Assembly (NCBI RefSeq): GCF_013364155.1 | Contig: NZ_CP054916.1 | Location: 7,780,001 to 7,844,000 of the forward strand | DNA length: 64,000 nt | From: Streptomyces sp. NA02950 | GTDB taxonomy: Bacteria > Actinomycetota > Actinomycetes > Streptomycetales > Streptomycetaceae | Reading direction: 5' to 3' | Shown: piece by piece, positions 8,524 through 60,583 of the stretch | Layout of the letters: the number at the start of each line of letters is the position of its first letter | Numbering within the stretch: the stretch's first letter is position 1 | Translations under genes and position numbers: made by a program | The notes under the pieces: generated by a model | What the model was told of the DNA's origin: nothing | Seen by the model: only the letters and a program-made list of their open reading frames with translations | Database searches by the model: none

Positions 8524-8578
8524 GCAAAGGGGAACCTTGGTGACCAACGGGGGAATGTGGAAGGCCATGGGGGAGTGC

Positions 8579-9589: not shown

Positions 9590-9623
9590 ATGACGAATGA
9601 CGAATGACGAATGACGAATGACG
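9589..9623 (+). repeat. Five perfect tandem copies of AATGACG
   Basis: The heptamer AATGACG is repeated five times without interruption, starting at the last base of the ketosynthase stop codon. A GGGGGAG ribosome-binding site and the ATG of the next gene (9637) follow. Each unit contains an overlapping ATG and TGA (ATGA). A 7-nt unit is prone to slippage, and copy-number change would alter spacing and any stop/start coupling between the two genes. Confidence 0.95.
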
Positions 9624-9636
9624 GGGGAGCGACCTC

Positions 9637-10311: not shown

Positions 10312-10344
10312 GCGGGCGGCAAGCACACGCGGGGGATCAGAGAA

Positions 10345-13630: not shown

Positions 13631-13788
13631 CCTCGAACTGGGGCGGATGCCGTGTCCGGCATGGTCACCCAGGTGCGTCCGCCACGGTCAGACGAGATGA
13701 ACGCGTGCTGCCGGGCCTTGCCGCTGTGCGATCCGGCCCGCGATCTGGGCGAACCGCGACCGCATCGTCACCCGGGAGACGCCCCCGC

Positions 13789-14143
13789 ATGACTACGCCA
13801 CCACCGCCACCTGAGGCGGAGCGGACTGATGGGTCACCCGTCCGGATCGGCGCTCTCGTTCCGCTGACTCGGCCTGGCTGGATCGAGGCGGGCCGCCACG
13901 TGCTCGCTGGACTGGAGCCGGCCGCTCGCGATGTCAATGACGCCGGCGGTATCGGCGGAAGACCACTCGAGCGCCCTCCTTCGTCGCCTTCGAGGGTTAC
14001 GACACGGTCGCCGTCCTCGCCGATGTGCTGCGTTCTCCCGCACGCCGGGCATCAGCGTCTGGCAATGGGCTCGGACGCCGATCCAAGTCGTTGGTCGAGA
14101 TCCGGCGGAACCCGATCGCTTGCGGATCCTGCACGCCGGCTGA
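13789..14143 (+). pseudogene. Decayed ABC-transporter substrate-binding protein (Leu/Ile/Val-type)
   Basis: From ATG 13789 the frame reads VRIGALVPLTRPGWIEAGRH and NDAGGIGGRPLE, the N-terminus of peripl_BP_6 amino-acid-binding proteins. It then jumps directly to SFVAFEGYDTVAVLADVLRS, normally near the C-terminus, and after a frame change to RTPGISVWQWA and a C-terminal DPAEPDRLRILHAG ending at TGA 14143. About two thirds of the gene (the central ligand-binding part) is missing, and there are at least two frame breaks. It is a clear internal-deletion pseudogene. The 158 nt between 13631 and 13788 hold nothing recognised. Confidence 0.7.
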
Positions 14144-15388: not shown

Positions 15389-16750
15389 TCACACCAAGCG
15401 GCGGAATACGGGCTTCACCGGCCGTCCGGCCAGCCAGGGGGTGGGGTCAGCGTCGTCAAGTGCCTTCCGGTACACCGCACATGCCTGGGCCACCACCTCG
15501 ACGGTGCGGTCGATGTCGGCGTCGGTGAGGGCGCTGCTCACCACGAACGACGGGGCCAGCACCCCGCCCGCGAGGAGCCTGCGCAGGAACAGGGTGCGGT
15601 ACCGCTGCGACGGCCGGCGGTTCTCGTCGAGGGTGGCGAAGACCAGGTTGCTGGCCCGGCCCCGGACGACGATGTGGTGGCCGACGCCCATGCCGGCCGC
15701 GGCGTCGCGGACACCGGCGGCCAACCGCTCGCCGAGGGCGTGCAGCCGCGCGGTGACGCCCTCTTCGACATAGGTGGTCTGCACGGCCATCGCGGCTGCC
15801 AGGGAATGTGTTTCCGCACCGTGCGTGGTGGACAGCAGGAACACCCGGTCGCCGGAGTGACGCAACCCGCCCCGCTCCATCAGTTCGCGGCGCCCGGCCA
15901 GCGCGGAGACGGCGAACCCGTTGCCCAGCGCCTTGCCGAACGTGGAGAGGTCGGGGACGACGCCGTACAGACCCTGGGCGCCTGCCTCGGACCAGCGGAA
16001 GCCGGTGATCATCTCATCGAAGATCAGTACGCAGCCGTGCCGGTCGGCCAGCTCGCGCAGACCGGCGAGGTACCCGGGCGCCGGCTCGGTGTGGGTGGCG
16101 GGTTCGAGGATCAGGCAGGCGACCTCGTCCTGGTACCGGGTGAGCAGCTCCTCCGTGGCGGCCAGGTCCCCGTAAGGGAACGCCACCGTGAGCTCGTTGG
16201 TCACCGCCGGAACACCGGCGGACATCGGTGTGGTGCCGATGAACCAGTCGTCGACGGAGAAGAACGGATGGTCGGCGCAGATGGCCACCCTCGGACGCCC
16301 GGTGGCGGCGCGGGCGAGGCGCACCGCGGCGGTGGTGGCGTCGGAGCCGTTCTTCGCGAACTTCACCATCTCCGCGGTCGGCACCGTGGCCAGGAAGCGT
16401 TCCGCGGCTTCGACCTCCACGATGGACGGCCGGACGAAGTTGCTGCCGCGGTCGAGTTCCCGCCGCACCGCCTCGATCACCCGTGGGTGGGCGTGGCCGA
16501 GGCTGACCGACCGCAGTCCGGACCCGTACTCGATGTAGCGGTTGCCGTCGATGTCCCACACGTGGGCACCGCGGCCGTGGCTGATGACCGGGGCCAGGTT
16601 CTCGGGGTACTGGTCGTCGCCCTTGGCGTAGGTGTGCGCGCCCCCGGGGATCAGGGCGTGCAGTCGCTCGTTCGCCGCCCGTGACCGGGGCAGGAGGAAC
16701 TCCTCGGTCCCTTCGGTGTGTTCGGTGTCCACCCCGACCTCACTTCTCAC
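15389..16750 (-). CDS. Class III aminotransferase (glutamate-1-semialdehyde aminomutase-like)
   Basis: PLP enzyme of 453 residues. It shows HVWDIDGNRYIEYGSGLR, the NGSDATTAAVRLARAATGR segment that binds the cofactor phosphate, IFDEMITGFRW (Asp-Glu near the PLP nitrogen) and Lys273 in LSTFGKALGNGFAVSAL. It resembles GSA aminomutase but lies far from haem genes, as the last gene of the polysaccharide operon. Such homologues in sugar clusters aminate keto-sugars or related side chains. Its start overlaps the end of the RmlC-like gene by 11 nt. The substrate is inferred to be a keto-sugar or a small acid that decorates the polymer. Confidence 0.84.
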   Translation of the reverse strand: MRSEVGVDTEHTEGTEEFLLPRSRAANERLHALIPGGAHTYAKGDDQYPENLAPVISHGRGAHVWDIDGNRYIEYGSGLRSVSLGHAHPRVIEAVRRELDRGSNFVRPSIVEVEAAERFLATVPTAEMVKFAKNGSDATTAAVRLARAATGRPRVAICADHPFFSVDDWFIGTTPMSAGVPAVTNELTVAFPYGDLAATEELLTRYQDEVACLILEPATHTEPAPGYLAGLRELADRHGCVLIFDEMITGFRWSEAGAQGLYGVVPDLSTFGKALGNGFAVSALAGRRELMERGGLRHSGDRVFLLSTTHGAETHSLAAAMAVQTTYVEEGVTARLHALGERLAAGVRDAAAGMGVGHHIVVRGRASNLVFATLDENRRPSQRYRTLFLRRLLAGGVLAPSFVVSSALTDADIDRTVEVVAQACAVYRKALDDADPTPWLAGRPVKPVFRRLV

Positions 16751-44329: not shown

Positions 44330-44929
44330 TCACCGGGCGAGCCCCGGCGCCACATCCTGGAAGATCTCCCACAACCCGTCCGGCACCGGTCGCTCAACTC
44401 CCCCCATGCGCGGACATTGAGCCACGGCCGATCACGACACCGTCCACGGACACCTCTCCAGCAGCGCCGACCGCACGGGTGCCGTTGAATTGCCCCCTTT
44501 CGACGGCTGTTTGCCGAAGCCCGTGTGGCCCACCGCCGTGGGTTACCCCCGCAGCCGCGGATCGCAGGCCGGGCGGTCCAGCGCCGTCCGGCTCATCGGA
44601 TCCTGGCCGCCCGCTGCGAAATGACACGCGCCTCCGGGACTCGCCCCGAAGGAACTCGCGCGGGCCGTCACGTGGCGGCGCGCTTCCCCGGGAGCCGTGG
44701 CCGACGTGTGCGCGCAACCCGCGGAGGAGACACGAGGGAAGACGTACCGCACTCCTACCTGAGTAGCAGTGCACCCTCCCACCAAAGGCCCTCTTGCGAC
44801 GGCGGTACGGATCGACCCTGCCGCGGGCGCTTGCACACACGACCCGCCACGCATGGGATGAGACCCGAAAGCGGCGGACGGCGGCAGCCTCCGTCGGTCA
44901 CCGCCCGCGTCTGACGGGAGTCGCTCTCC
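44330..44929. other. 600-base stretch without a recognised gene
   Basis: Several short open frames exist on both strands but none has a recognisable motif, a convincing ribosome-binding site or similarity to neighbours. The stretch contains the promoter region of the exporter that starts at GTG 44930 (GGGAG about 10 nt upstream). No RNA gene or strong hairpin was seen. Confidence 0.4.
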
Positions 44930-46426
44930 GTGTCCACACAGATTGGCCCTGATCAGCCGAAACCGGAGCCTGCGCGGTCACTCCCGGAGTCGGCGGTGGT
45001 CGTCACACCGCAGAAGCTGGGCCTGTCGCTGGTGGTCCTCTCGGTGGCCGCGTTCGTCGCCGGACTCGACCTGTTCATCGTCAACGTGGCCTTCGACGCC
45101 ATCAGCCAGGACTTCGACGGCGCCACGCTGTCGGATCTCTCCTGGGTGCTCAATGGCTACGCGATCGTCTTTGCCGCACTCCTGGTGCCCCTCGGCCGGT
45201 TGTCCGATCGCCTCGGGCGCAAGCGCGTATTCCTGCTCGGCCTGGCGCTCTTCACCGCCGCCTCCGCCGCCTGCGCCACCGCGACCGGCCTGTGGGCACT
45301 GGTCGCTTTCCGGGTGCTCCAGGCCGTGGGGGCGGCGGCGTTGACCCCGGCAAGTCTCGGCCTGCTGCTCTCGGTCTTCCCGCCGGAGAGGCGACAGGGC
45401 GCGGTGCGGGTGTGGTCCGCCAGCGCCGCGCTGGCCGCCGCGGCGGGCCCCGTCTTCGGGGGGCTGCTGGTCAGCGCGTCATGGCGGTGGGTGTTCCTGG
45501 TCAACATCCCGGTCGGAGTGCTGGCCCTGCTGGTGGCCGTCCGGATCCTGCCCGAGTCGCGGGAGGAGCGGGCACGCCGACTGCCGGACCTGATCGGGAC
45601 CGGTCTGCTGACGGCCTCCATCGGGCTGCTGGCGCTCGGCCTCGTGAAGATCAACGAGTGGTCCGCGGCGCGGACGTCCGTCCTGCTGGCCGGCGCGGTC
45701 GCCGGGATCGCGGTGTTCTGGTTCCGTTCGCAGCGCCACCCCTCTCCGGTGGTCGAACCGGCACTTCTGCGCGTACGGGCGTTCGCCTGGTCGAATCTCG
45801 CCGCGCTCGCCTTCACCGCGGCGTTCGCGGCGAACCTGCTGACCGCGATTCTGTGGATGCAGCAGGTGTGGCACTACTCCCCGCTGCGGACCGGTCTCGG
45901 CATCGCCCCGGGGCCCCTCATGGTTCCGCTCGCGGCGATCGTCGCCGGAAAGCTGGTGACGCGCTTCACACCGGGTGCGGTCACCGCGCTCGGCTGCCTG
46001 ATCTGCACCATCGGGGTGGTGATGCTGACGCTCAGCATCGGCCGGACCCCGCACTACGCCACCGAGCTGCTCCCCGGCTGGTTGATCGGCGGTGCCGGGG
46101 TCGGCTTCGCACTTCCGACGATTCTGGCGTCGGCCACGTCGGACCTGCCGGAGTCCCGGTTCTCCACCGGCAGCGCCGTGGTCAACATGAGCCGACAGAT
46201 CGGCAGCGTGCTGGGGATCAGCGTGCTGGTCGCGATCCTCGGCACTCCGCTCACCTACGACGAGACGCATCGAGCCTTCGTCCACGCCTGGATCGCGATC
46301 GACGTGCTCATGCTGCTCGGTGCCGTGACGGCCCTGGGAATGACACCGCGGCCCGCCGCACAGCGGACTTCCGGCGGGCCCGCCGAAGAGCTCGAAGACC
46401 ACTTATTGCGAAGGGAAACCTCATGA
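44930..46426 (+). CDS. MFS transporter, DHA2 (14-helix) family
   Basis: Exporter of 498 residues in the inner membrane. After a 28-residue hydrophilic N-terminus come SLVVLSVAAFVAGLDLFIVN (helix 1 with the DHA2 Asp), LNGYAIVFAALLVPLGRLSDRLGRKRVFLLG (motif A) and AASWRWVF-like LVSASWRWVFLVNIPVGVLA, as in EmrB/QacA drug:H+ antiporters. Start is GTG. It overlaps the following di-iron enzyme by ATGA (46423-46426), so it belongs to the lipid pathway and probably exports its product or confers self-resistance. Confidence 0.88.
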   Translation: MSTQIGPDQPKPEPARSLPESAVVVTPQKLGLSLVVLSVAAFVAGLDLFIVNVAFDAISQDFDGATLSDLSWVLNGYAIVFAALLVPLGRLSDRLGRKRVFLLGLALFTAASAACATATGLWALVAFRVLQAVGAAALTPASLGLLLSVFPPERRQGAVRVWSASAALAAAAGPVFGGLLVSASWRWVFLVNIPVGVLALLVAVRILPESREERARRLPDLIGTGLLTASIGLLALGLVKINEWSAARTSVLLAGAVAGIAVFWFRSQRHPSPVVEPALLRVRAFAWSNLAALAFTAAFAANLLTAILWMQQVWHYSPLRTGLGIAPGPLMVPLAAIVAGKLVTRFTPGAVTALGCLICTIGVVMLTLSIGRTPHYATELLPGWLIGGAGVGFALPTILASATSDLPESRFSTGSAVVNMSRQIGSVLGISVLVAILGTPLTYDETHRAFVHAWIAIDVLMLLGAVTALGMTPRPAAQRTSGGPAEELEDHLLRRETS

Positions 46427-47616
46427 GCGGTAAACGCGTTGTCTTTGTCGACTGTCTGCCGGGAGTCACTCTCGATGAGCAGCTGTCCCTGGCTCGCTTC
46501 GGAGAGATCGGCCTCGACCGGTCCCGGCCGGACACCTTCGAACGCTATCTGCACGAACTCGAGCCGGGCACTGAGCTGGCCGCCGCCTACATAGGGGGCA
46601 GCGGAACCTCGATACCCACAGCGGTACGAAAGCTGCGCGGTATGGCGCAGTTCACCAAGACCCGGGTGTACGTCGTCGGCGACGCCGCGGGCGGGCCCGT
46701 TCCCGGCTGGGCCGAGGCGCTGGACGTGGAGGACATCCTGGCCCCGGCAGCCTTCGACGGCTTCGGCTTCACCGACACGCTCGAGATAGGTCTGCGGGCC
46801 TACCACTCGCTGATCCTCGACCCGCTCTACACCGACTTCTATCTCGACATGACCTGGAACAAGATCTTCGACTGGTTCGAGACCACCCGCTGGGACTGGC
46901 GCGAGCTCGACCTCGATCGTCTCAACCCCGAGCTGATGAGCCCGGAGGAGGTCGACTTCCTCACCGAGGCCGCCATCATCGAGTTCGGCACGCTGCCCGG
47001 CGCACACAACTTCCTGCGCGAGTGGGAGGGGGAGACCAGCTTCTCCTCCTGGGCGCTGAGCTGGGGTGCGGAAGAGGCCCGGCATTCGCTGGTACAGGCC
47101 CGCTGCCTGGACAAGATGGGCATCAAGGTCCGTTCCAAGCACGCGCTGTACAAGCGCGAGCCGTACCCGATCGGCGACACCCGGGCCGGCACCCTCACGA
47201 TGAACATCATCTCCGAGGCCCGCGCCGCGGAGCTGTACCGGTGCCTCGCGGCCGAGACCAAGGAGCCGGTCGTCCGGGGAATCTGGAAGCTGCTCGGCCG
47301 TGACGAGTCCCGGCACGCCCGCGCGTTCTTCGTCTTCACGCAGGAACTGTGCGACAGCAACCGGGAGAGCCAGATCGCCGCGCTCAAGATGGCGTACGTC
47401 TGGCTGGCCGACCGCAGCGAGGGCCTCAAGCACCCGGCCGGACACTTCTATCCGCACTCCACCTCCGCAAAGGGCATACGCCGGATCGAGATGATCAAGG
47501 ACGATGCCACCGATGCGGCCGACGCCAAGGTCCTGCAGATGGTGCGGCGCCTGGTCGAGGACGACTCGATCGAGTCGGCCAGGGACATCAAGGGCAAGCT
47601 CCGCTCGCTCATATAG
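46423..47616 (+). CDS. Soluble di-iron desaturase-like enzyme with N-terminal extra domain
   Basis: Protein of 397 residues. The region after residue 130 is a ferritin-like bundle of the acyl-ACP desaturase type: Glu187 in TEAAIIEFG, E218-x-x-H221 in GAEEARHSL, Glu265 or Glu270 in SEARAAELY, and E295-x-x-H298 in GRDESRHARAFF. That is the full four-carboxylate, two-histidine di-iron set. The first 125 residues (KRVVFVDCLPGVTLDEQLSL, TRVYVVGDAAGGPVPGW) form a separate alpha/beta-looking domain not typical of plant-type desaturases. With an ACP and acyl-AMP ligase downstream, the likely substrate is an acyl-ACP, to be desaturated or hydroxylated. Translation is coupled to the exporter. Confidence 0.82.
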   Translation: MSGKRVVFVDCLPGVTLDEQLSLARFGEIGLDRSRPDTFERYLHELEPGTELAAAYIGGSGTSIPTAVRKLRGMAQFTKTRVYVVGDAAGGPVPGWAEALDVEDILAPAAFDGFGFTDTLEIGLRAYHSLILDPLYTDFYLDMTWNKIFDWFETTRWDWRELDLDRLNPELMSPEEVDFLTEAAIIEFGTLPGAHNFLREWEGETSFSSWALSWGAEEARHSLVQARCLDKMGIKVRSKHALYKREPYPIGDTRAGTLTMNIISEARAAELYRCLAAETKEPVVRGIWKLLGRDESRHARAFFVFTQELCDSNRESQIAALKMAYVWLADRSEGLKHPAGHFYPHSTSAKGIRRIEMIKDDATDAADAKVLQMVRRLVEDDSIESARDIKGKLRSLI

Positions 47617-47786
47617 CACCCGGTTATGTGGTCTGTGCTGTTCCATGATGTTTTCGACCAGAAGACGTGTGCAATTTCCGCCGTCGCACGCCTCCTGACG
47701 TCGCGCCAACAGGCTCACGAGACATCAGCAGCCTCCCAGTCGACACCGCCGCGCCGCGAAAGCGCCTGACTTGAGGAGCGAGAGGT

Positions 47787-48293
47787 TTGCCGGAGTCAGC
47801 CTCTATCGATTCTGAGAGCGACAACCCATCCAATTGCTTCGGCTGCGCCCAGCACAATCCCATCGGTCTGCGCCTGGTCTTCGAGAAGAACGGAAACGGA
47901 TTCGCCACGCGGCTCACTCTCGGTGTCGACTACGAGTCGTTTCCGGGGGTCATCCACGGCGGAATCGTCGCCACGATTCTGGATGAGACCCTCGCTCAGG
48001 CCGTGTACCGGGCCGGGTTGGTCTCGGCGTTCACCGCCGGTCTGCGCATCCGTTACGGAAGGCCTATGGAGACCGGGGTCGAATACACCGCACACGCCGA
48101 GATCACCAAACGGGACGAGCACTCGGTGCGAGCGTCCGGCCAGATCCTGCACGGTCGTGATCTCGTGGCGGCAGCGGACGGCACCTTCCATCTGCTCACC
48201 GACAAGGTGCTGGTCGAGCACGGCCGACACCTGCCGAACAGACTCGTCACGGCACTTCGCATCGCCAACGGAACCGCTGCACAGGGGGAATGA
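47787..48293 (+). CDS. Hotdog-fold thioesterase (PaaI-like)
   Basis: Protein of 168 residues. NCFGCAQHNPIGLRLVFE is the start of a common hotdog thioesterase subgroup, and SFPGVIHGGIVATILDETLA has the conserved HGG and catalytic Asp/Glu helix. It may release the acyl chain from the ACP or act as a lyase/Michael-addition enzyme as some hotdog proteins in isonitrile lipid pathways do. Start is TTG 47787 with GGAG about 10 nt upstream. The 170-nt gap before it, relatively AT-rich at its left side, may hold a second promoter. Confidence 0.8.
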   Translation: MPESASIDSESDNPSNCFGCAQHNPIGLRLVFEKNGNGFATRLTLGVDYESFPGVIHGGIVATILDETLAQAVYRAGLVSAFTAGLRIRYGRPMETGVEYTAHAEITKRDEHSVRASGQILHGRDLVAAADGTFHLLTDKVLVEHGRHLPNRLVTALRIANGTAAQGE

Positions 48294-48299
48294 ACAACC

Positions 48300-48548
48300 A
48301 TGGACACCAGCAAACAGATCCTTGGCATCATCGCCGAGGAACTCCAGGTCAGTGCTGATGAGCTGGCGCCCGATCAGTACTTTCGCGCCCTGCCCAACGT
48401 CGATTCGATGCGCGTACTCCAGATCATCCTGAAAACCGAGAAGGCCTTCGACATCGAGATCGAGGACGACGTCACGTTCCGGATCCAGACCATCGGTGAA
48501 TTCCAGACCCTGGTCGAGGACCTCCGTCGGCAGCGAGCCGCGGCGTGA
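48300..48548 (+). CDS. Acyl carrier protein
   Basis: Stand-alone ACP of 82 residues. Ser36 in LPNVDSMRVLQII is the phosphopantetheine attachment site (DSM in place of DSL). The flanking acidic helices (FDIEIEDDVTFRIQT) are typical. It starts 6 nt after the thioesterase stop and its own stop overlaps the ATG of the acyl-AMP ligase (48545-48548). It should carry the acyl chain loaded by that ligase and present it to the di-iron enzyme. Confidence 0.9.
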   Translation: MDTSKQILGIIAEELQVSADELAPDQYFRALPNVDSMRVLQIILKTEKAFDIEIEDDVTFRIQTIGEFQTLVEDLRRQRAAA

Positions 48549-50221
48549 ATCTGGTCCAGGCGCTCGCCGAGGTGGCGAACCGCGGAACAGGCCACGGCCT
48601 GCGCCTGTTCCGCGGCGATGAGGAGGCCGAACGCGTCACCTACGGCGAACTGTATGCCGATGCCGGAAGGCTGGCGTGCGGCCTCCTGGAGCGCGGGGTC
48701 CGGCAGGGCGAGCGGGTGGCCATTGCGCTGCCCACCTCGATCGACTTCGCCAGAGCGTTCTTCGGTGTGCTGGCGGCCGGTGCGGTGCCGGTGCCACTGC
48801 CACCGCCGGTCCGCTTCGCCTCGCTGGACATCCACCTCAGCCGGATCGCCCTGGCGATGCGTCAGTCGAAGGTGCGCGTGGTGCTGTCCGACAGCACCCT
48901 GGGACGCTTGATGGGGCCGGTGCTCGGCGGTGCCGACGGCGAGTTCGAGGTCCTCGACACCGCGCTGGTGCGGGCCGCCGGCACGGAGTACGCCGACGTG
49001 CCGGACGAAGCTCCCGGACTCGTCCAGTACACCTCGGGCACCAGCCAGGAACCGAAAGGCGTGGTACTGAGCCATGCCAATCTGCTCGCGAACGTCGCGG
49101 CGATCACCAAGGGGCTCGACGTCACCGACGCGGAGGTGTGCTGCAACTGGCTGCCGCTCTTCCATGACATGGGGCTGATCGGCACCCTGCTCACCCCGGT
49201 GTTCAACGGCGCCGAGGCCCTCCTGCTCCCGCCGGAGGACTTCCTCAGGGATCCCGGCCGCTGGCTGCGCATCATCAGCGGATACCACGGGACCGCCACG
49301 ACAGCACCCAACTCCGGCTATCTGCACGCGCTGCGCAAGGTCCCCGCCGACAAGGTGCATGGACTCGACCTGTCCCGCTGGCGGGTCGCGCTCAATGGCG
49401 CGGAGGCCATCGACCCGGGCATGATGCGCCGGTTCTCCGAGCACTTCGCCCCGGCCGGCTTCCACGGCTCGGCCTTCCTTCCGGTGTACGGCCTGGCCGA
49501 AGGCAGCCTCGCGGTGACCTTCGCACCACTGGGACGCCGCTCGGCCAAGACCATCTGGGTACGGCGGGAGCCGCTCGCGGACGGCGTGGTGGAGCCGGTG
49601 TCCCCGGAAGCCGGCGACACCGCATCCGCCCGGGAACTCGTCTCGGTCGGCGTCCCGGTGGCGAACACCGAGGTCCGGCTGGTCGATGACGACGGAGCCG
49701 TACTCTCCGGCGAGGCCCGCGTGGGCGAGATCCAGATCCGCGGTGACTCGGTGATGCGCGCCTACGAGGCCGACGAGGCGGCCACCCGGGCCACCGTCCA
49801 CGCGGGAGGCTGGGTGTCCACCGGCGATGTGGCGCTCCGGCGTGACGGCGAGCTCTTCATCGTGGGCCGCACAAAAGAAATGATCATCATATTCGGCCAG
49901 AATTACCACGCCAGCGATATCGAGTCGGTGGCCGGCCGGGTACCGGGTGTGGCGAACAACGCGGTCCTGGCGATGGCGGTGGCAACAGCCGACGGTGAAG
50001 GGCTGGCGCTGGTCGCGGAGACCAAGGAGGCCGATCCGGCGGTGCGGGCCCAACTCGTCGGGCAGCTCAGGCATGCCGTTTCCGATGCCATCGGAATCTC
50101 TCCGCACGACGTCATTCTGGTCAGAAGAGGTACCTTGCCGCGCACCTCGAGCGGAAAACTGCAACGGTACGGTACGGAAGCCCTGGTGACGGCTGAGGAC
50201 GGGGACGGGGCCAGTAGATGA
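48545..50221 (+). CDS. Fatty acyl-AMP ligase (FAAL)
   Basis: ANL-superfamily adenylating enzyme of 558 residues. Core motifs are VQYTSGTSQEPKGVVLSHAN (P-loop, residues about 160-179), NWLPLFHDMGLIG (about 201-213), VYGLAEGSLAVTF (about 314-326) and the C-terminal GRTKEMIIIFGQNYHASDIE and LPRTSSGKLQR with the catalytic Lys. HDMGLIG and YGLAEGSL are hallmarks of FAALs, which pass acyl-adenylates to an ACP rather than CoA. The stop overlaps the region of the next gene's possible upstream ATG. It loads a free fatty acid on the adjacent ACP. Confidence 0.9.
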   Translation: MNLVQALAEVANRGTGHGLRLFRGDEEAERVTYGELYADAGRLACGLLERGVRQGERVAIALPTSIDFARAFFGVLAAGAVPVPLPPPVRFASLDIHLSRIALAMRQSKVRVVLSDSTLGRLMGPVLGGADGEFEVLDTALVRAAGTEYADVPDEAPGLVQYTSGTSQEPKGVVLSHANLLANVAAITKGLDVTDAEVCCNWLPLFHDMGLIGTLLTPVFNGAEALLLPPEDFLRDPGRWLRIISGYHGTATTAPNSGYLHALRKVPADKVHGLDLSRWRVALNGAEAIDPGMMRRFSEHFAPAGFHGSAFLPVYGLAEGSLAVTFAPLGRRSAKTIWVRREPLADGVVEPVSPEAGDTASARELVSVGVPVANTEVRLVDDDGAVLSGEARVGEIQIRGDSVMRAYEADEAATRATVHAGGWVSTGDVALRRDGELFIVGRTKEMIIIFGQNYHASDIESVAGRVPGVANNAVLAMAVATADGEGLALVAETKEADPAVRAQLVGQLRHAVSDAIGISPHDVILVRRGTLPRTSSGKLQRYGTEALVTAEDGDGASR

Positions 50222-50247
50222 CCTTGGCACAGACCGGAGGTAACACG

Positions 50248-50775
50248 ATGACCGATGCCCCCAGGACACCGGAGGAGCTCACCGCGACCGAGCGCGAGGA
50301 ACTTCTGCGCCGCTCGTGGATGGCCACCGACGGCCTCTGGTACTACCAGACCGCGACCAAGAGCGGCATCGATGGTGCCAACGAGGCCAACATCCAAGTG
50401 GTGCGCGAGTTCGGGCGTCAGGAGATGGTCCGCCTGATGCGCGGTCTGGGCATCGAGAAGGTCGAAACCCTCGAGCAGTACCGGCGCCTGTTCCAGGCGG
50501 CGGTGGATCTCTACCTCGGCTCGCTGTTCGCGGCGGAGGAGTCGTTCGAGGACCGCACCCAGCATCTGAAGGTATCCACGTGCTTCGCCTACAAAGGAGT
50601 CAAACGCGCCGGCATCGAGAAGGACTATCACTGCGGTCCGGGGGAGCGCCTGACGGGCTGGCTTCAGGCGATGGACCTGCCGGCCGAGATCGATCCCGGT
50701 GTGGGCCTGTGCCAGATGGCCCACACGGGTTCCTGCGGCTACCGGCTCACAGTCGACCTGCCGCGCGAATCCTGA
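50248..50775 (+). CDS. Small Cys-containing protein, possibly DUF6125/ATC-hydrolase-like
   Basis: Protein of 175 residues. It has a helical N-terminal part with SWMATDGLWYYQTATKSG and NIQVVREFGRQEMVRLMRGL, and a C-terminal part with KVSTCFAYKGVKRAGIEK, DYHCGPGERLTGWLQAM and GLCQMAHTGSCGYRLTVD, giving four cysteines. The pattern recalls DUF6125 and L-2-amino-thiazoline-4-carboxylate hydrolase-like proteins; the assignment is from memory and tentative. ATG 50248 is chosen because GGAGGT is 7 nt upstream; an earlier ATG (50218) overlaps the ligase stop. As the last gene of the lipid operon it may act on the finished acyl group or an amine partner. Confidence 0.65.
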   Translation: MTDAPRTPEELTATEREELLRRSWMATDGLWYYQTATKSGIDGANEANIQVVREFGRQEMVRLMRGLGIEKVETLEQYRRLFQAAVDLYLGSLFAAEESFEDRTQHLKVSTCFAYKGVKRAGIEKDYHCGPGERLTGWLQAMDLPAEIDPGVGLCQMAHTGSCGYRLTVDLPRES

Positions 50776-50810
50776 GGACCCGCTCGGCACCTTCACGGCC
50801 GACCACGGAG

Positions 50811-51464
50811 CTATGGATAGGGCTCCAGGATCCCCGCCTCCTGGGCCCGGCGGATCGCATCCACCCGGGACGTGGCTCCGAGCTTCCGGTAGATGTTCGT
50901 CAGATGCCGTTTGACGGTCGTCTCGGCCAGGAACAGAGCTGCCGCGGTCTCCGCGTTGCTGTGTGCCTGGGCGACATGCCGCAGCACCTCGACCTCCCGG
51001 GCGGACAGGAGCGGCGCCCTGGAGCCGGGCCGGTCGAGTGCCTTGAGCATGTCCCGGGAAATGGAGAGATGGATCCGGTCCGGGGCGGCGATCACCGAAC
51101 GGATCGCGATGAGCAACTCCCGGGTGGATACGGACTTCAGGAGGTAGGCGGCAGCACCATCATCGATCAGTTGCCTGAGCAGTACGGGGTCGTCGTGCAT
51201 CGTCAGCACGATGCAGTGCGTCTGAGGGCAGTGTCGGTGGATCTCCCGAATGGTGTCGCGGATCCCCGGCCCCGGCATCTGCACGTCGAGCAGCGCGATG
51301 CCGGGACGATGCCGCCGGGCGAGCGTGACGGCGTCGATTCCGCTCTCGCCCTGGGCAACGACATGGAGCCAGTCCTCTTGCGCGAGGAGATCGGCCAGCA
51401 GCTCCCGGAAGAGCGTGTGATCATCCACCACGATCAGCTCTGTCATGACGTGGCTGTCAGCCAT
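50811..51464 (-). CDS. NarL/LuxR-type response regulator
   Basis: Two-domain regulator of 217 residues. The receiver has LIVVDDHTLF (acidic pocket), Asp60 as phosphoacceptor in IALLDVQMPGPG, and Lys in AAYLLKSVSTRELL. The LuxR-type helix-turn-helix is at about 150-210 (LLSAREVEVLRHVAQAHSNA, ETTVKRHLTNIYRKLGATSR). It follows the kinase stop by 3 nt. A second ATG at 51446 is possible. It converges on the lipid operon and may regulate it. Confidence 0.9.
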   Translation of the reverse strand: MADSHVMTELIVVDDHTLFRELLADLLAQEDWLHVVAQGESGIDAVTLARRHRPGIALLDVQMPGPGIRDTIREIHRHCPQTHCIVLTMHDDPVLLRQLIDDGAAAYLLKSVSTRELLIAIRSVIAAPDRIHLSISRDMLKALDRPGSRAPLLSAREVEVLRHVAQAHSNAETAAALFLAETTVKRHLTNIYRKLGATSRVDAIRRAQEAGILEPYP

Positions 51465-51467
51465 CGG

Positions 51468-52556
51468 TCACGAGGTGACCAGGGGGATGGACACACGGAC
51501 CGTCGTGCCGCTCCCCACCGAGCTGCGGATGGTGCAGATGCCTCCGAGCAGTTCGGTCCGCTCGTGGATCGAAGTGATCCCGTCGTGCCGCGCTTTCCAG
51601 ACTGTGTCCATGTCGAACCCCGTTCCATTGTCGGAAACCGAGGCATGGACGGCCGACTCCGATACATGCAGCCTGATCCGTATCCGCTTCGGCGCGGAGT
51701 GCCGCAGCGCGTTCTTGACCGCCTCGCGCAGCATGTAGTACAGCTCCTCCGCCACCGGCTCGGGTACCGCGAGGATGTCCCCCGTCACCGTGAGACTGAC
51801 CTCCACGCCATCCGGAGCGGCGGACTCCAGAAACTGGCCGAGGGAACGCTCCAGGTCCGAGTAGGAGACCGAATCCCGCAGTTCCCCCGAGAGCTCGCTG
51901 ATGGCGTGAAGAGCCTCGCGGAGCGTGTGCTCCACCGATCGCAACTTCGTCCGGGTGAGCCCGGGATCGCGGTCGAGCTCATCCTCGCACTGCTCCAGAC
52001 CGAGCAGCGCCACCAGGACGTCATGAGAGACCCGGTCGTGCAGATCCCGTGCGAGCCGGCGGCGTTCGTCGAGATGAGAACTGTGGATCTTCTCGCGCAG
52101 GAACTTGATGTACCCGACGCAGCCGAGCGCGATCTGAGTCATCACCGCGTCGTGAAGGGTCAGCGCGAGATCGAGCACCGCCTCGGGGGCGGGCGCTTCC
52201 GGGAGGGCCTCGCGCACCAGCACCGGCAGTGTCAGCTCGTAGAACAGACCGGCGGCGCGTACGGTCTCGGTCGGATGGATCTCGAGCGAGGCCCGCTTCG
52301 AGCTGAAGTCGGCCGCGCTGCGCAGTGTTTCCTCGCTCGGTTCGATGCGCTGCCGGAGACCGGACCGGGCACCGCGGCCGAGGTCGTGCAACAGCAGCTC
52401 AACCTGCCTGGCCAGCAGCGCGCTCAACGTCGCCTCGCTGACCAGGGGACTGTCGGCCGATATCAGCCGCTCGAAGAATTGATCAGTGATTCTCGCCCGC
52501 ACTTCTTGAGATAAGTCGGACGCTCCCATACGCCAATCCGCTGCGCTGGACACCAT
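51468..52556 (-). CDS. Cytoplasmic NarL-type sensor histidine kinase
   Basis: Kinase of 362 residues without any transmembrane helix. The N-terminal 150 residues are all-helical and of unknown sensor type. HisKA_3 begins DERRRLARDLHDRVSHDVLV with His near residue 173. The ATPase domain has EAVKNALRHSAPKRIR (N box) and VSDNGTGFDMD (G1 box), then GSGTTVRVSIPL. ATG 52556 is preferred because GGGGGAG lies 5 nt upstream; GTG 52562 is in frame just before. It forms an operon with the response regulator and must sense an intracellular cue. Confidence 0.87.
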   Translation of the reverse strand: MVSSAADWRMGASDLSQEVRARITDQFFERLISADSPLVSEATLSALLARQVELLLHDLGRGARSGLRQRIEPSEETLRSAADFSSKRASLEIHPTETVRAAGLFYELTLPVLVREALPEAPAPEAVLDLALTLHDAVMTQIALGCVGYIKFLREKIHSSHLDERRRLARDLHDRVSHDVLVALLGLEQCEDELDRDPGLTRTKLRSVEHTLREALHAISELSGELRDSVSYSDLERSLGQFLESAAPDGVEVSLTVTGDILAVPEPVAEELYYMLREAVKNALRHSAPKRIRIRLHVSESAVHASVSDNGTGFDMDTVWKARHDGITSIHERTELLGGICTIRSSVGSGTTVRVSIPLVTS

Positions 52557-52980
52557 AGCCACTCCCCCGCTTCGTCGCCTAGCAGCGCATTCGCCATGCT
52601 ATGTGCGGCCCAGTCTAGCGCCGCCGGGTTTGCGTCTGACAGTGTTCGCGCCTGTCCGGCGGATCATGAGCGGTGTCGCGGCCGGATCGCTGCGACGGTG
52701 ACGGTGGCGTGGGAGTCCCCGTCCCGGAGGGCGGCTGTCGAGCGTAGCGGTCCCAAGGCCCCCGCAGGCTGCCCCTCTCCGCATGGGACCCCGACCCGGG
52801 GGAGGGGGCGACACGGTTGCACTCCGCCGGGAGCCGTCCTTGAGGTCCGCGAAGACGTCTGGGGACGTGATATCAGGAAACCGTCCCGGCTGCCCGGGGA
52901 TTCACCCACCTTAAAGGTGTTGTTCTCGCACCCATGAACATGAAGGAGGAACTGGGGATATTGTTCCCGCGGCAAGTGCG
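52557..52980. other. 424-base stretch without a recognised gene
   Basis: Holds the promoter region of the kinase gene (right of 52560) and the 3' side of the membrane protein ending at 52981. A short palindrome-like CACCTTAAAGGTG lies near 52908-52920. Open frames here have no motif or credible start. No RNA gene was recognised. Confidence 0.4.
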
Positions 52981-54575: not shown

Positions 54576-54719
54576 GCCGGGGTGCGTCGCGCTCCGCACC
54601 CTCGCAGGCTCGAACGAGACGGCCGTGCCTCCTCTCGTGATGCCAACGGCGCCAAGGCGTCCGATGCGGATATCCGGTTTCTCCTTCACGCCCGTACGAG
54701 ATCGCGGCACCATGAAGGT

Positions 54720-55211
54720 GTGAGAAGAAGAACGCGCGTTGTGGTGGGGGCCGTTGCCGTCGTCTGCGCCGTGATGTCGGTGGGGCTGGTGGTGTTGGTC
54801 GTCGTCAGGGATCTGAACACCGCAGGACAGGCAGCGGGCATTGTGGGGAGCGTGGCCAGCCTGGCGGCACTCGTGCTTGCCCTTTACGCTCTCCACCACC
54901 CCCCGGCCGCGCCCGTTCCCGGAACGGGGGACGATGCCGGGGCCCAGTCCTCGACCGGGCCGCGCTCAGTCGTCACCGGCGGCAGCATCGGCCGGGCCGT
55001 CACAGGGGACAACAACCGTCTCTCCGGATCCGCGCCCGAACCGCCTGAACCGCACACACCGTCCGTGCCGCCGGGGCAGAGCGGGAGCGGCGGCGACGAG
55101 GGTGCGCCCGCGCCCGGAACGCCAGGCGTCCCGCGAGCGGGAGAACGTGCCGTCAGCGCGGGAGGCGACATCGGTGAGGTCGTCACCGGGGACGGAAACA
55201 CTCTCGCATGA
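54720..55211 (+). CDS. Small two-helix membrane protein with GD(G/N)N motifs
   Basis: Predicted 163-residue protein. Two helices (VVVGAVAVVCAVMSVGLVVLV and AGIVGSVASLAALVLALYAL) form a hairpin, followed by a Pro/Gly/Ser-rich tail. The tail holds two copies of a motif: VVTGGSIGRAVTGDNN and VSAGGDIGEVVTGDGN. The same motif (IIGGDAGTVVTGDGN) occurs in the next protein. Start is taken as GTG 54720 because the helices begin right after; a longer frame reaches 54582. The stop overlaps the ATG of the NTPase gene (55208-55211), so the pair is translationally coupled. Function is unknown; a membrane anchor or partner for the NTPase is inferred. Confidence 0.72.
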   Translation: MRRRTRVVVGAVAVVCAVMSVGLVVLVVVRDLNTAGQAAGIVGSVASLAALVLALYALHHPPAAPVPGTGDDAGAQSSTGPRSVVTGGSIGRAVTGDNNRLSGSAPEPPEPHTPSVPPGQSGSGGDEGAPAPGTPGVPRAGERAVSAGGDIGEVVTGDGNTLA

Positions 55212-58200
55212 CTCCCGGTCTGCCATGGCCGAGAAAGAACACCACCTCCGCCGGCCCGCACCAGGCGTCCGACTCCCCGCCCGGCACGGCACAGACGAGT
55301 GGGCGAACCGGGGCGCTCGGCCGGTCCTCGGTGTCCGGGTACGAGGACACAACAGGGACCGGCCGGTCAGCCGAAAACGTGCCGAAGAGCGGTGAGCGGT
55401 CGGTCATCATCGGGGGCGATGCCGGCACCGTCGTCACCGGCGACGGCAACACGGTCATCACGGCCGGGAAAAAGGTGCCCTCGCATCTGCGCGACCCCGC
55501 GCGGTGGCCGGTCGCCGGGGCCTGGGGAGCCCTGGCCGCGGGAGCCCACCGCGCACGACCCGACGCCGCCAACGACGCCGTTCCGCCGTACATCCCCCGC
55601 GATATCGACATCGAGCTGCGACGGCGCCTGGCGGCGGCCGGGCGTGACGGCGGGATGGTTCTGGTGCTGGGGGACTCGACAGCGGGCAAGACCCGTGCGG
55701 CCCATGCGGCTCTCCAGGCCGAACTCCCCGAACACCGCGTCTTCGCCCCGCCCGTCGGCACCGATCTACCGGCGGCGGTCCAGGTGATCGAGCGCACGGG
55801 CACCGCGTGTGTGGTGTGGCTGGACGACGTGCAGCGGTATTTCGGCCCTGGCGGGCTCGATCCGACGCTCCTGGCGGAGGGGGAGCGGCTGCGGCTGCCG
55901 ATTCTGGCAACGATGCGCACCAGCCAGTACGAGATCTACACCCGCGCCGACGAGCACCCTCCGGCCATGGACCGAACGGCGCGGCCGACCGTGGATCTGG
56001 GGGCGCGCGTGCTGAACCTGGTGCAGCCGATCGAGGTGGCCCGTGTCTGGAGCGAGGAGGAGCTGGAGCGGGCGCGGCAGAGTCAGGACGCGCGGATCGT
56101 CGAGGCCACCGTGCACCACGGGTCATACGGCATCGCGGAGTACCTCGCCGCCGGTCCCGCGCTGCTCGCGGAGTGGCGGCGTGCCTGGCGTCCGGGCGGG
56201 CACCCACGGGGCGCGGCCCTCGTCGCTGCCGCCGTCGATCTGGCAAGGACCGGGCTGCGTTCGCCGTACCGGACCACTGTGCTCACCGAGCTGCACAGCC
56301 ACTATCTGAACGAACAGGGCGGCCCGCGGCTGCGGCCCGAGCCCCTGGAACAGGCCCTGGAATGGGCGAGCCGACTCCGCTACGGCGCCGCCAGCCCGCT
56401 GATCCCCGCGGAAGCGGCGGACGGCGGCGGGCACGGCGGCGCAGGTGACCGTGCGGAGGGGGTCTGGGAGGTGTTCGACTACCTCACCGAGCACACCGCA
56501 GGCCCCGTACCCGAGGTCGTCTGGAACACCGCACTGGCCGGCGCGGCCGATGACGACGAGCGCGTCACCATCGGCTTCTACGCCTACCGGAACGGTGTCG
56601 CGGACGTGGCCGAGACGGCCCTGCGGCCCGCAGCGGCGGCCGGAACCCGCTATGCGGCCAACAACCTCGGCATTCTGCTCTCCGACGCCGGGCGCATAGA
56701 GGAAGCCGAAGAACTGTTGCGGTCCGCAGTGGAGGCAGGGGACCGCCAGGCGACGAACACCCTGGGCACTGTGCTCTGCCAGGCCGGACGCTGGGAGGAA
56801 GCCGAGACCGTCCTGCGCTCCGCGGCCGACGCCGGACACCCCACGGCCGCCTGCAACCTCGCCATCCTGCTGCGCAACGCCGGCCGCACCGAGGAGGCCG
56901 AAGCGCTCTACGCCGCCGCGGCCGACGCCGGGGACACCGACGCCGCCTTCAGCCTCGGCGATCTCCTCCACCGAGCCGGACGCTGGGAGGAAGCCGAGAC
57001 CGCCCTGCGTTCCGCGGCCGACGCCGGGCACAAGACAGCGGCCGCCGCCCTCGGTGCCCTGCTCCATGAAACCGGCCGTACCGAGGAAGCCGAAGCCCTC
57101 CTCCGCCCCCTCGCCGAATCGGGCGATGAGGCCGCCCTCAACAACCTCGGCAATGTCCTCAACGACATCGGACGGACAGCGGAGGCCGAACAATTCTACC
57201 GTTCCGCGGCCGACGCGGGGAACACCTACGCCGCCGTCAATCTCGGCGCTCTCCTCGGCCGCACCGGCCGCGTCGAGGAAGCCGAAGCCGCCCTCCGGCC
57301 CTTGACCGAGGCCGGCGACACAGCCGCGGCCAGCAGCCTCGGCCTCCTGCTCTGGGACGTGGGCCGCGCCGACGAAGCCGAACCTCTCCTGCGGACCGCG
57401 GTCGATGCCGGCATCCTCCACGCCGCCTCCAACCTCGGGGCCCTCCTTCATGAGACAGGACGCGAGAACGAGGCCATGGCCGTGTGGCGCCCCGCGGCCG
57501 AAGCCGGACAGCCGGGTGCTGCCCACAACCTCGGTACCGCGCTGTGGAGGGCGGGACGCCTCAAGGAAGCCGAGCCCTTTCTGCGCGCCGCGGCGGAATC
57601 CGGGCACAGCGAAGCCGCCAACAGTCTGGGGCTCCTCTGCGTCCAGAGCGGACGCATCGCCAAGGCGGAACGCGTCTGGCGCGCCGCGGCCGAGGCCGGA
57701 GACATCGCCGCCACCACCAACCTGGGCAAGCTGTTGACCGACACCGGACGCGCCGAGGAAGCCGAACCCCTCCTGCGGACCGCAGCCGACATGGGCGCCC
57801 CTGAAGCCGCGAACAACCTTGGCGTACTGCTCCACGGAGCCGGCCGCCTCGACGAAGCCGAATCCGCGCTTCGTGCAGCAGCCGACGGCAACCACCTCGC
57901 CGCCCACAACAACCTCGGCATCCTCCTGCGCCAGACCGGACGCACCGAGGAGGCGGAGACCTGCTTCCGCACCGCGGCTGACGCCGGACACATCGACGCC
58001 GCGCACAACCTCGGCAATCTGCTCACCGACACGGGACGGGCCGAGGAGGCCGAGGCTGTCCTGCGTACCGCAGCCGATGCCGGACACGTCCCCGCCTCGT
58101 ACAACCTCGGCCGCCTGCTTCAGGAAGCAGGCAGCACCAAACAGGCGCGGCTGTACCTCCGTACCGCCGCTGATGCCGGGCACACGGACGCCACCTACCG

Positions 58201-58408
58201 GCTCGGCAACCTGCTTGACCAGGCCGGACGCACAAAGAAGGCCGAGGAGCTCTACCGCGCCGCCGTCACCGGGGGACACCCCGAAGCCGCCCGCACACTC
58301 GCCGACCTGCTCCGCCGGACGGGCCGGGCACGGGAGGCCGGGGAACTGGAACGGAAGGTGTCTCGGGCAGGGCGTTCAGCGGCGAGGGGAGTCTTCGGCC
58401 GGCTGTGA
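55208..58408 (+). CDS. P-loop NTPase with GDGN motif and long TPR/Sel1-like repeat domain
   Basis: Large protein of 1066 residues. Residues about 1-60 are disordered; 64-85 hold SVIIGGDAGTVVTGDGN. The NTPase part (about 130-430) has Walker A VLGDSTAGKTRAAHAAL and Walker B ACVVWLDDVQRYF with a likely sensor ATMRTSQYEIY. From about residue 478 come seventeen full repeats of exactly 32 residues (consensus AxNLGxLLxxxGRxEEAExx then LRxAADAGH) plus a partial one, forming a superhelical scaffold. The layout matches STAND-like NTPases used in signalling and anti-phage defence, but no effector domain is visible in the chain. The coupled small membrane protein may fill that role. Confidence 0.85.
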   Translation: MTPGLPWPRKNTTSAGPHQASDSPPGTAQTSGRTGALGRSSVSGYEDTTGTGRSAENVPKSGERSVIIGGDAGTVVTGDGNTVITAGKKVPSHLRDPARWPVAGAWGALAAGAHRARPDAANDAVPPYIPRDIDIELRRRLAAAGRDGGMVLVLGDSTAGKTRAAHAALQAELPEHRVFAPPVGTDLPAAVQVIERTGTACVVWLDDVQRYFGPGGLDPTLLAEGERLRLPILATMRTSQYEIYTRADEHPPAMDRTARPTVDLGARVLNLVQPIEVARVWSEEELERARQSQDARIVEATVHHGSYGIAEYLAAGPALLAEWRRAWRPGGHPRGAALVAAAVDLARTGLRSPYRTTVLTELHSHYLNEQGGPRLRPEPLEQALEWASRLRYGAASPLIPAEAADGGGHGGAGDRAEGVWEVFDYLTEHTAGPVPEVVWNTALAGAADDDERVTIGFYAYRNGVADVAETALRPAAAAGTRYAANNLGILLSDAGRIEEAEELLRSAVEAGDRQATNTLGTVLCQAGRWEEAETVLRSAADAGHPTAACNLAILLRNAGRTEEAEALYAAAADAGDTDAAFSLGDLLHRAGRWEEAETALRSAADAGHKTAAAALGALLHETGRTEEAEALLRPLAESGDEAALNNLGNVLNDIGRTAEAEQFYRSAADAGNTYAAVNLGALLGRTGRVEEAEAALRPLTEAGDTAAASSLGLLLWDVGRADEAEPLLRTAVDAGILHAASNLGALLHETGRENEAMAVWRPAAEAGQPGAAHNLGTALWRAGRLKEAEPFLRAAAESGHSEAANSLGLLCVQSGRIAKAERVWRAAAEAGDIAATTNLGKLLTDTGRAEEAEPLLRTAADMGAPEAANNLGVLLHGAGRLDEAESALRAAADGNHLAAHNNLGILLRQTGRTEEAETCFRTAADAGHIDAAHNLGNLLTDTGRAEEAEAVLRTAADAGHVPASYNLGRLLQEAGSTKQARLYLRTAADAGHTDATYRLGNLLDQAGRTKKAEELYRAAVTGGHPEAARTLADLLRRTGRAREAGELERKVSRAGRSAARGVFGRL

Positions 58409-59677: not shown

Positions 59678-60583
59678 TCAGACGCGGTCGGCTGCGATCA
59701 GGACGTACTGGAAGGAGCCGTCCTTGTAGGAGTTGATGAACGCTTCTTCAATGCCGGTGACCAGTGAGGACGTGGCCCGCAGCTCCCAGTAGGGCAGGGT
59801 CGCGGGAGTGAGATCGATGACGGCATGCGGTACGAGACGGTTGTCGGCCATGGCGCGCAGGTATTCCCGACGGGAGTGGATGTTGCACTCGAAGTGCGCG
59901 TTGATCTGGGAGACGTACTTCGAGGGCTGGCCGTAACGCGGGTTCCAGCAGCCGGTGATGGTCACGTAGCGGCCGCCGACCGCGAGGATGCGGGAGTGCT
60001 CGGCGAAGAGGTCGTGCAGGTCGACGTACATGCTCGACTCGTTGTTCCACGAGGCCGCGGCCCGCCCGGTCTCGAAGGGCGTATCGAGCATGTTGCAGAC
60101 GCGGGCGTGGACATGGTCCTCGATGCCGAGTTCGCGGGCACGCTGGTTGGCGAAGTCGGCCTGCTTGGCCGACAGTGTGACGCCCTCGACCCCGCACCCG
60201 AAGCGCTGGTGGGCCATGACCATCGAGCCGCCGCGGCCGCAGCCGGCGTCCACGAGCGTGTCGTCGCCCTCAATGGGGCCGAGATGGTCCAGGAGGAGTT
60301 CGGCCTGTGCCGACTCCAGGCGGTGGAGCTCGGCGATCAGCTTCTTCTCATATGTGCTGTCGGTGGCGTCGCCGAGGGCGGTGTGGTCGACGTCCCCGAT
60401 CCCGTAGTGGTGGTGGTAAAGGCCGTCGACATCGCCGAGACGCAGGTTCACGGGCCTGGCCTCGCGGTCCCAGTAGCGGGCGATGTCCCCCTGGTAGGGC
60501 GTCACCGGGGCCGGGATGAACACGGAAGTGGCGGCGGTGGCGACGTCGGCGCTGAGTTCGGTGCTGGTCACAGATAAGTCCAT
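59678..60583 (-). CDS. Geranyl diphosphate 2-C-methyltransferase
   Basis: SAM-dependent enzyme of 301 residues that methylates geranyl diphosphate at C-2, the first step of 2-methylisoborneol synthesis. The SAM site is TLVDAGCGRGGSMVMAHQRF; AAASWNNESSMYVDLHDLFA and VTITGCWNPRYGQPSKYVSQ are typical of this family. ATG 60583 is chosen over upstream starts as it gives the family N-terminus MDLSVTSTELSADVATA. It begins 5 nt after the terpene synthase stop. It is cytoplasmic, whereas the synthase is expected to be inside the encapsulin shell. Confidence 0.93.
   Translation of the reverse strand: MDLSVTSTELSADVATAATSVFIPAPVTPYQGDIARYWDREARPVNLRLGDVDGLYHHHYGIGDVDHTALGDATDSTYEKKLIAELHRLESAQAELLLDHLGPIEGDDTLVDAGCGRGGSMVMAHQRFGCGVEGVTLSAKQADFANQRARELGIEDHVHARVCNMLDTPFETGRAAASWNNESSMYVDLHDLFAEHSRILAVGGRYVTITGCWNPRYGQPSKYVSQINAHFECNIHSRREYLRAMADNRLVPHAVIDLTPATLPYWELRATSSLVTGIEEAFINSYKDGSFQYVLIAADRV

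Follow-up and report, generated by a model that had tools for sequence, protein, structure and literature searches.

A six-gene operon with a fatty acyl-AMP ligase, a carrier protein and a di-iron enzyme

The 64,000-nucleotide stretch of Streptomyces sp. NA02950 analysed here (the window; bases 7780001-7844000 of contig 1 in a genome of 9.77 Mb) contains, at window positions 44930-50775, six genes that run in the same direction (+) and encode a major facilitator superfamily (MFS) exporter, a di-iron protein, a hotdog protein, an acyl carrier protein (ACP), a fatty acyl-AMP ligase (FAAL), and a member of the DUF6125 family (Table 1). An earlier interpretation made from the letters alone (the sequence-only reading) had named the same set, and all six assignments were confirmed at their positions. 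The gene content would suit a pathway, complete in itself, that makes an oxidised free fatty acid, a reading to which we give about an even chance.

The genes are closely spaced. Four-base overlaps occur at three joints, namely between the MFS and di-iron genes, where the di-iron ATG lies over the MFS stop, between the ACP and FAAL genes, and between the FAAL and DUF6125 reading frames, and the hotdog and ACP genes are separated by 6 bases. The sole sizeable gap, 170 bp between the di-iron and hotdog genes, compares with spacings of -4 to 187 bp in 11 relatives that carry both genes. A scan of positions 44400-51600, covering sigma-70-type promoters only, returned no promoter-like sites and two terminator-like ones, which does not exceed the numbers in shuffled sequences.

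Table 1. Genes of the operon and of the adjoining regulatory pair, in window coordinates
Feature	Position	Strand	Evidence
DHA2-type MFS exporter, 498 aa	44930-46426	+	MFS_1 3.7e-51, 174.5 bits
Di-iron acyl-ACP-desaturase relative, 397 aa	46423-47616	+	Rubrerythrin 25.5, FA_desaturase_2 23.4 bits
PaaI/THEM4-type hotdog protein, probable thioesterase, 168 aa, TTG start	47787-48293	+	4HBT 5.6e-9, 36.6 bits
Acyl carrier protein, 82 aa	48300-48548	+	PP-binding 1.5e-9, 38.4 bits
Fatty acyl-AMP ligase (FAAL), 558 aa	48545-50221	+	AMP-binding 4.5e-65, 220.4 bits
DUF6125 protein, 175 aa from 50248	50248-50775; ORF opens at 50218	+	DUF6125 2.6e-7, 31.2 bits
LuxR-type response regulator, possible linked regulator	50811-51464	-	Response_reg 2.4e-20, GerE 2.7e-18
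HisKA_3 sensor kinase, presumed partner of the LuxR-type regulator	51468-52562	-	HisKA_3 1.5e-11

The ligase is assigned to the FAAL class because solved fatty acyl-adenylate ligases cover most of its length. It matches 3pbk, a fatty acyl-adenylate ligase, over residues 28-541 (9e-71), and its top PDB chain, 7r7e, labelled as a polyketide synthase, over residues 21-546, whereas 4-coumarate and benzoate CoA ligases match it piecewise only. Its top NCBIfam model is the fatty acyl-AMP ligase NF006624, at 418.2 bits and thus below the cut-off of 600. In the ACP, the attachment serine lies in the motif VDSMR and is retained in all 18 aligned ACPs. The hotdog protein has eight solved relatives at E <=0.01, five of them labelled as thioesterase superfamily, and carries the motifs HGG...LDE and NCFGC; HGG...DE is present in those hotdog members that were read. 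The exporter scores 226.5 bits against TIGR00711 (cut-off 230.2). Together, these protein families support the earlier proposal that a fatty acid would be activated and loaded onto a dedicated ACP.

The di-iron enzyme is a divergent relative of acyl-ACP desaturases

The C-terminal part of the di-iron protein is a ferritin-like di-iron domain, preceded by an extra N-terminal domain of approximately residues 1-135. Its matches to Rubrerythrin (cut-off 22.8) and to the acyl-ACP desaturase family FA_desaturase_2 (PF03405; cut-off 22.7) both exceed the curated thresholds marginally. Across the family the second match is general, with 28 of 28 members found by FA_desaturase_2 at E <=10 (best 1.4e-8). 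When the protein is aligned to solved DesA2 (1za0, E 1.6e-5), a desaturase, its two ExxH motifs and E265 fall in register, and alignment by hhalign with L080, the typical acyl-ACP desaturase of the same genome (E 3.1e-69), places LPxxH and both ExxH motifs together (E 0.001). The description of the protein as a relative of soluble ferritin-type desaturases is thus upheld by Pfam and by both alignments, and on its sequence the enzyme is a divergent relative of these, the link being real but modest. L080 is encoded at another locus, so the housekeeping desaturase is a different protein from the operon enzyme.

Candidate metal ligands were sought in an alignment of 122 full-length proteins, comprising the window protein, its relative in Pseudomonas entomophila (L026), and 120 database proteins, the best 120 of 186 relatives (E <=0.001) obtained by scoring the 8000 best candidates. 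The candidates E187, E218xxH221, E265, and E295xxH298 are kept in 121-122 of the 122. Invariant throughout are E187, E217, E218, and H298; H221, E265, D294, and E295 occur in 121 proteins, with a gap in the remaining one, and H195 occurs in 121, with D in the other. Assignment of E187 as a ligand rests on its conservation and position. Acyl-ACP desaturases use a 2-His/4-carboxylate site. CylC-type halogenases, by the excerpted account in PMC12101540, have a 3-His site and the signature QExxH plus HxxDExxH. This signature is absent from the aligned family, in which all 122 proteins have E at position 217 and 121 have L at position 291, the remaining one a gap. With the CylC glutamine replaced by E and its extra histidine by L, the site is best read as 2-His/4-carboxylate. 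JamB-type desaturases belong to IPR005804, a family of membrane-type desaturases; only Rubrerythrin and FA_desaturase_2 match the operon protein at E <=0.01. On these motifs and families, the CylC-type halogenase, AurF, and JamB-type desaturase assignments of the enzyme were rejected.

Residues 1-135 have no family match. By eye the N-terminal domain looks like a degenerate receiver. A receiver (REC) profile built from 27 domains gave 3.2 bits for the best real N-terminal domain against 7.3 for the best shuffled one, hhalign against REC gave a probability below 1, and PDB searches with two N-terminal domains returned nothing usable. One of five N-terminal pieces, from L026, matches KaiA_N, a pseudo-receiver (0.0013, 19.3 bits, below the cut-off of 27). 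The domain is perhaps a pseudo-receiver.

A conserved four-cysteine protein

The product of the last gene, called simply a Cys-rich protein in the sequence-only reading, can be narrowed to a DUF6125 member, the sole match to that family in the genome. Its second ATG, at 50248 and preceded by GGAGG, is a likelier start than 50218, and the database copy of the protein (P0121) is likewise 175 aa long. In an alignment that uses the best 120 of 122 relatives, the window's own among them, four cysteines (numbered from 50218) are conserved: C122 in 119 of 121 sequences, C139 in 120, C165 in 118, and C173 in 117. This set suggests a metal site. A PDB search with the DUF6125 alignment found no relative (best E 0.17), and a search of open-licence papers turned up no mention of the family. 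Our guess is that the protein serves as a metal-binding accessory, as a redox partner, or as the last tailoring enzyme; a role as electron donor is suggested, equally as a guess, by the rubredoxin carried in polyyne clusters (excerpt of PMC8406139).

The gene set recurs in several architectures

A two-motif scan of one genome per species yielded 20 loci, 18 of them strong; with L029, from a genus sample, and the window added, the counted set comprises 20 loci. L027 and L028 (25-26% identity over residues 212-348 only) and L048 (E 2.5e-13) were left out, and L030-L033, L040, and L049 were excluded as lying in genomes already counted, given their matching coordinates and sequence. Genes of the relatives were called by a simple GC3 rule, and spurious reading frames are among them. 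Besides Streptomyces, the counted loci come from Pyxidicoccus, Sorangium, Pseudomonas entomophila, two Rokubacteria, and a Deltaproteobacterial record. Among named records, the 12 whose di-iron proteins are 61-89% identical all belong to Streptomyces. The full-length di-iron form is rare, occurring in 5 of 392 genus, 3 of 394 family, and 1 of 346 phylum genomes, with the window's genome counted in each.

The neighbourhood search for FAAL, ACP, and this di-iron family that had been proposed from the sequence found the three together in 19 of the 20 loci, and the record of the twentieth (L025) ends directly after the ACP gene. Such adjacency is more than chance would give, though several loci are closely related (L009/L029, L045/L046, and L013/L015/L018/L019), so that the counts do not all represent independent events. 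The ACP was found by tblastn in 18 loci; that of L025 was recognised by reading and that of L026 by Pfam. The FAAL is present in 19 loci, the hotdog protein in 12, the MFS protein in 8, and DUF6125 in 7 (the window, L009, L010, L011, L017, L020, and L023); L029 ends within the FAAL gene and L022 starts just before the di-iron gene, so DUF6125 cannot be judged in those two. Over 18 loci, sequence distances correlate between di-iron protein and FAAL (0.96), di-iron protein and ACP (0.83), and FAAL and ACP (0.91; Mantel test, 0 of 5000 permutations each), values that related species inflate.

The partners of this core differ. In the window type (8 loci) the order is MFS, di-iron, hotdog, ACP, FAAL, followed by DUF6125 in six of the seven judgeable loci; the MFS gene is present in all eight and was found in none of the other 12. 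A P450 adjoins two of the eight, and a LuxR-type regulator with a HisKA_3 kinase adjoins four (among the eight, the L029 record ends before the regulator). A second type, in six Streptomyces loci (L013-L016, L018, and L019), consists of an alpha/beta hydrolase, a P450, the di-iron protein, ACP, FAAL, and a methyltransferase, the last matched at only 26% in L014. A second P450 is present in three of the six (L014 and L016 are short records), and a hotdog gene was found in none of them. The third type, in six loci outside Streptomyces, has one form with di-iron, hotdog, ACP, and FAAL genes (L021, L024, and L026, with L025 cut off) and another, in the two Rokubacterial loci L022 and L023, with di-iron, ACP, phosphopantetheinyl transferase, and FAAL genes. 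In L026, further thioesterase-like reading frames flank the cassette by reading, at 8990-9394 and approximately 13530-14056.

Beyond the counted set lies a distant class (L037-L039 and L045-L047), each of whose six loci contains FAAL, a first di-iron protein, hotdog, ACP, a CMAS methyltransferase, and a second di-iron protein. Each has a di-iron protein of 260-290 aa that lacks the N-terminal domain. Within the five aligned (the L045 protein is not in this motif count), the same ligand residues are found, with Q at 217 and Ala in place of the extra His of CylC. The second di-iron protein of L039 is a clearer FA_desaturase_2 match (4.1e-17).

A model for the pathway and its alternatives

Based on these data, a simple model would run in four steps, in which the gene set, its linkage, and the candidate residues are observed and each catalytic step follows from the family of the protein concerned. 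The FAAL would turn a free fatty acid and ATP into acyl-AMP and load the phosphopantetheine of the neighbouring ACP. The di-iron enzyme would then bind the acyl-ACP and oxidise an unactivated C-H with O2 and two electrons. Hydrolysis of the modified acyl-ACP by the hotdog thioesterase, encoded in 12 of the 20 loci and in all six distant ones, would give a free oxidised fatty acid, which the MFS protein would export. The neighbouring two-component pair perhaps controls the pathway. Since sequence comparison places desaturases as its closest relatives, a double bond would be the likeliest outcome of the di-iron step, with hydroxylation second. The sequence-only reading had also offered an amide as the product, and none of the six genes supports this.

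Several observations weigh against this pathway. The FA_desaturase_2 score of the window protein is only just above its cut-off, and the hhalign probability for L080 is just 21 despite the E value; E187 is left uncovered by the 1za0 match and is not aligned to a Glu of L080, in which the Glu corresponding to E265 lies five residues off. AurF also matches 19 of the 28 family members at E <=10 (best 3.5e-6), and at E <=0.01 the first di-iron protein of L039 is found by Ferritin_2 (1.5e-5) but not by FA_desaturase_2. By Pfam, no ferredoxin or rubredoxin is among the six genes. A hotdog gene was not found in 8 of the 20 loci (the six Streptomyces loci with P450 and methyltransferase, and the two Rokubacterial ones), so hydrolysis by this protein is not universal, and in L012, where the other five genes are present, a DUF6125 gene was not found.

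The foremost alternative keeps the same pathway and lets the di-iron enzyme hydroxylate or epoxidise the acyl-ACP rather than desaturate it. The 2-His/4-carboxylate site of most non-haem di-iron hydroxylases fits the ligand set equally well (excerpt of PMC12101540), and a P450 adjoins 8 of the 20 loci, so that oxidised fatty acids would suit the theme. The nearest solved relatives are nonetheless acyl-ACP desaturases, and the profile aligns with that of the genome's own L080, which leaves this variant possible yet unlikely.

Alternatively, the operon might serve in trans, handing its modified acyl-ACP to a polyketide synthase (PKS) or nonribosomal peptide synthetase (NRPS) encoded elsewhere, with the hotdog protein just clearing wrong acyl groups. 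In favour of this, a profile search of the genome returned 79 PF00109 ketosynthase matches and 121 AMP-binding matches (the operon FAAL among them), and in the distant class L039 adjoins a 2295-aa PKS-like reading frame and L038 a ketoacyl-synthase-III-like one, both by reading. Locally, the absence of PKS or NRPS genes claimed earlier holds: the nearest PF00109 match begins approximately 46 kb, and the nearest other AMP-binding match approximately 82 kb, downstream of the operon. By eye, the flanks read in L009, L010, L012, and L020 contain no PKS or NRPS either, and all eight window-type loci have their own exporter. Supply in trans is therefore improbable.

More doubtful still is the idea that one of two proteins, hotdog or DUF6125, works as an acyltransferase or hydrolase with a second building block, giving an ester, an amide, or a thio-compound. 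ATC_hydrolase matches 3 of 19 DUF6125 members (best 1.5e-4), but the window member is not one of them, and among the six genes there is no obvious maker of a second building block.

The AurF matches noted above would suit N-oxygenation of an amine-bearing substrate. The window member, however, reaches only 13.3 bits against the AurF (PF11583) cut-off of 29.6, none of the six genes is one for an amine, and the third His of the 3-His sites of AurF and CylC (excerpt of PMC12101540) is Leu in 121 of 122 proteins, all of which makes this reaction very improbable. Least probable of all is a CylC-like halogenation of acyl-ACP, for which CylA/CylB/CylC is the nearest described set of FAAL, ACP, and ferritin-like di-iron enzyme (excerpts of PMC12101540 and PMC8406957) but whose signature residues are replaced here as described above.

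The comparison with isonitrile lipid loading modules was examined through the iron oxygenase. A TauD-like iron oxygenase is a feature of isonitrile lipid clusters. The genome has seven TauD matches, none less than 880 kb from the operon; the earlier statement that this enzyme is missing is correct, and the isonitrile interpretation was rejected on this ground.

Genomic surroundings

Upstream of the operon, on the opposite strand, lie polysaccharide-type genes as judged by eye; positions 15389-43142 (-) contain, by eye, a long stretch of sugar/polysaccharide-type genes with a glutamate-1-semialdehyde-aminomutase-type protein at 15389-16750 (NF004856, 717 bits). Farther away, approximately 35 kb upstream, a stand-alone ketoacyl-synthase-III-like protein (8537-9589) shows no sign of a tie to the operon. 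It belongs to a row (8537-12123, +) with a 224-aa protein that neither Pfam nor NCBIfam matches at 1e-5 and with an acetolactate-synthase-like thiamine pyrophosphate (TPP) enzyme, possibly another small pathway. Downstream, a 1066-aa TPR-repeat protein (54582-58408, +) is preceded by a 209-aa reading frame that overlaps it by 4 bases, and 59678-60583 (-) encodes a geranyl diphosphate 2-C-methyltransferase (NF041943, 481.8 bits, cut-off 400), which belongs to the 2-methylisoborneol pathway.

Implications

If the proposed pathway is right, the operon is a six-gene system, with five proteins soluble by prediction, for selectively oxidised free fatty acids. The di-iron family with the motifs TLPGAHNF and WGAEE[AS]RH would then be a marker for lipid pathways without PKS or NRPS genes, which searches based on PKS and NRPS may have missed, and DUF6125, a family of unknown function, would gain a metabolic context in which its role is testable.

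More generally, and more tentatively, since we hold it likelier to be wrong than right, FAAL, ACP, and a soluble di-iron enzyme of desaturase type that brings its own N-terminal domain may form a further general cross-phylum cassette beside JamABC (alkyne) and CylABC (halogen). Such a cassette would occur in at least four settings: exporter plus DUF6125; P450s plus methyltransferase; outside Streptomyces, a phosphopantetheinyl transferase or hydrolase; and, distantly, a cyclopropane-type (CMAS) methyltransferase plus a second di-iron enzyme. The four-Cys DUF6125 protein would in that case represent a redox or tailoring partner of a new kind.

Comparison with known systems

The sequence-only reading did not recognise the set as described, and searches of open-licence papers turned up no description of it; a subscription paper could hold one. 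Of the parallels drawn there, that of FAAL and ACP with JamABC stands, whereas the closest precedent, CylA/CylB/CylC (excerpt of PMC12101540), and the polyyne clusters with a thioesterase (excerpt of PMC8406139) were missed.

Known pathways already combine a FAAL and an ACP with an oxidative enzyme that works on the tethered chain. By sequence, the operon resembles the JamABC/CylABC type of cassette, sharing the FAAL and dedicated ACP of JamABC, but fails the tests for the defining enzymes JamB and CylC. In cyanobacteria, CylA/CylB/CylC and NocO likewise combine FAAL, ACP, and a ferritin-like di-iron enzyme acting on the ACP-bound fatty acid at an unactivated carbon; in type I PKS clusters of the Cyl kind, a PKS lies downstream of the CylC gene, whereas the present operon has hotdog, DUF6125, and exporter genes (excerpts of PMC12101540 and PMC8406957). 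JamABC and polyyne clusters also share FAAL, ACP, and a desaturase, with a thioesterase in the polyyne clusters, but their desaturase is JamB-type (IPR005804) rather than ferritin-like. Polyyne clusters carry a rubredoxin and three desaturases, against no rubredoxin and one desaturase candidate here, and ten actinobacterial polyyne genomes have a P450 in place of both the thioesterase and the rubredoxin (excerpt of PMC8406139).

The AFC-BC11 cluster of Burkholderia also carries, beside the FAAL AfcA, the putative acyl-ACP desaturases AfcN and AfcD but, unlike the operon, makes an NRPS lipopeptide; deletion of AfcN abolished production and deletion of AfcD brought no change, so the role of its desaturases is unsettled in the excerpted account (PMC12186527). 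The dob cluster, whose AurF/CmlI-like enzyme acts on a free acid (excerpt of PMC13061610), is not close to the operon.

With the soluble acyl-ACP desaturases (PF03405; DesA2, 1za0), the operon enzyme shares the ferritin-like domain, the ExxH/E/ExxH pattern, and, by family, the acyl-ACP substrate. It differs in its great divergence, its extra N-terminal domain, and the FAAL and ACP genes adjacent to its own. The distant class resembles the operon in having FAAL, hotdog, and ACP genes and in the ligand residues of its di-iron enzyme, and is set apart by its shorter di-iron protein with Q at 217, its CMAS methyltransferase, and its second di-iron enzyme.

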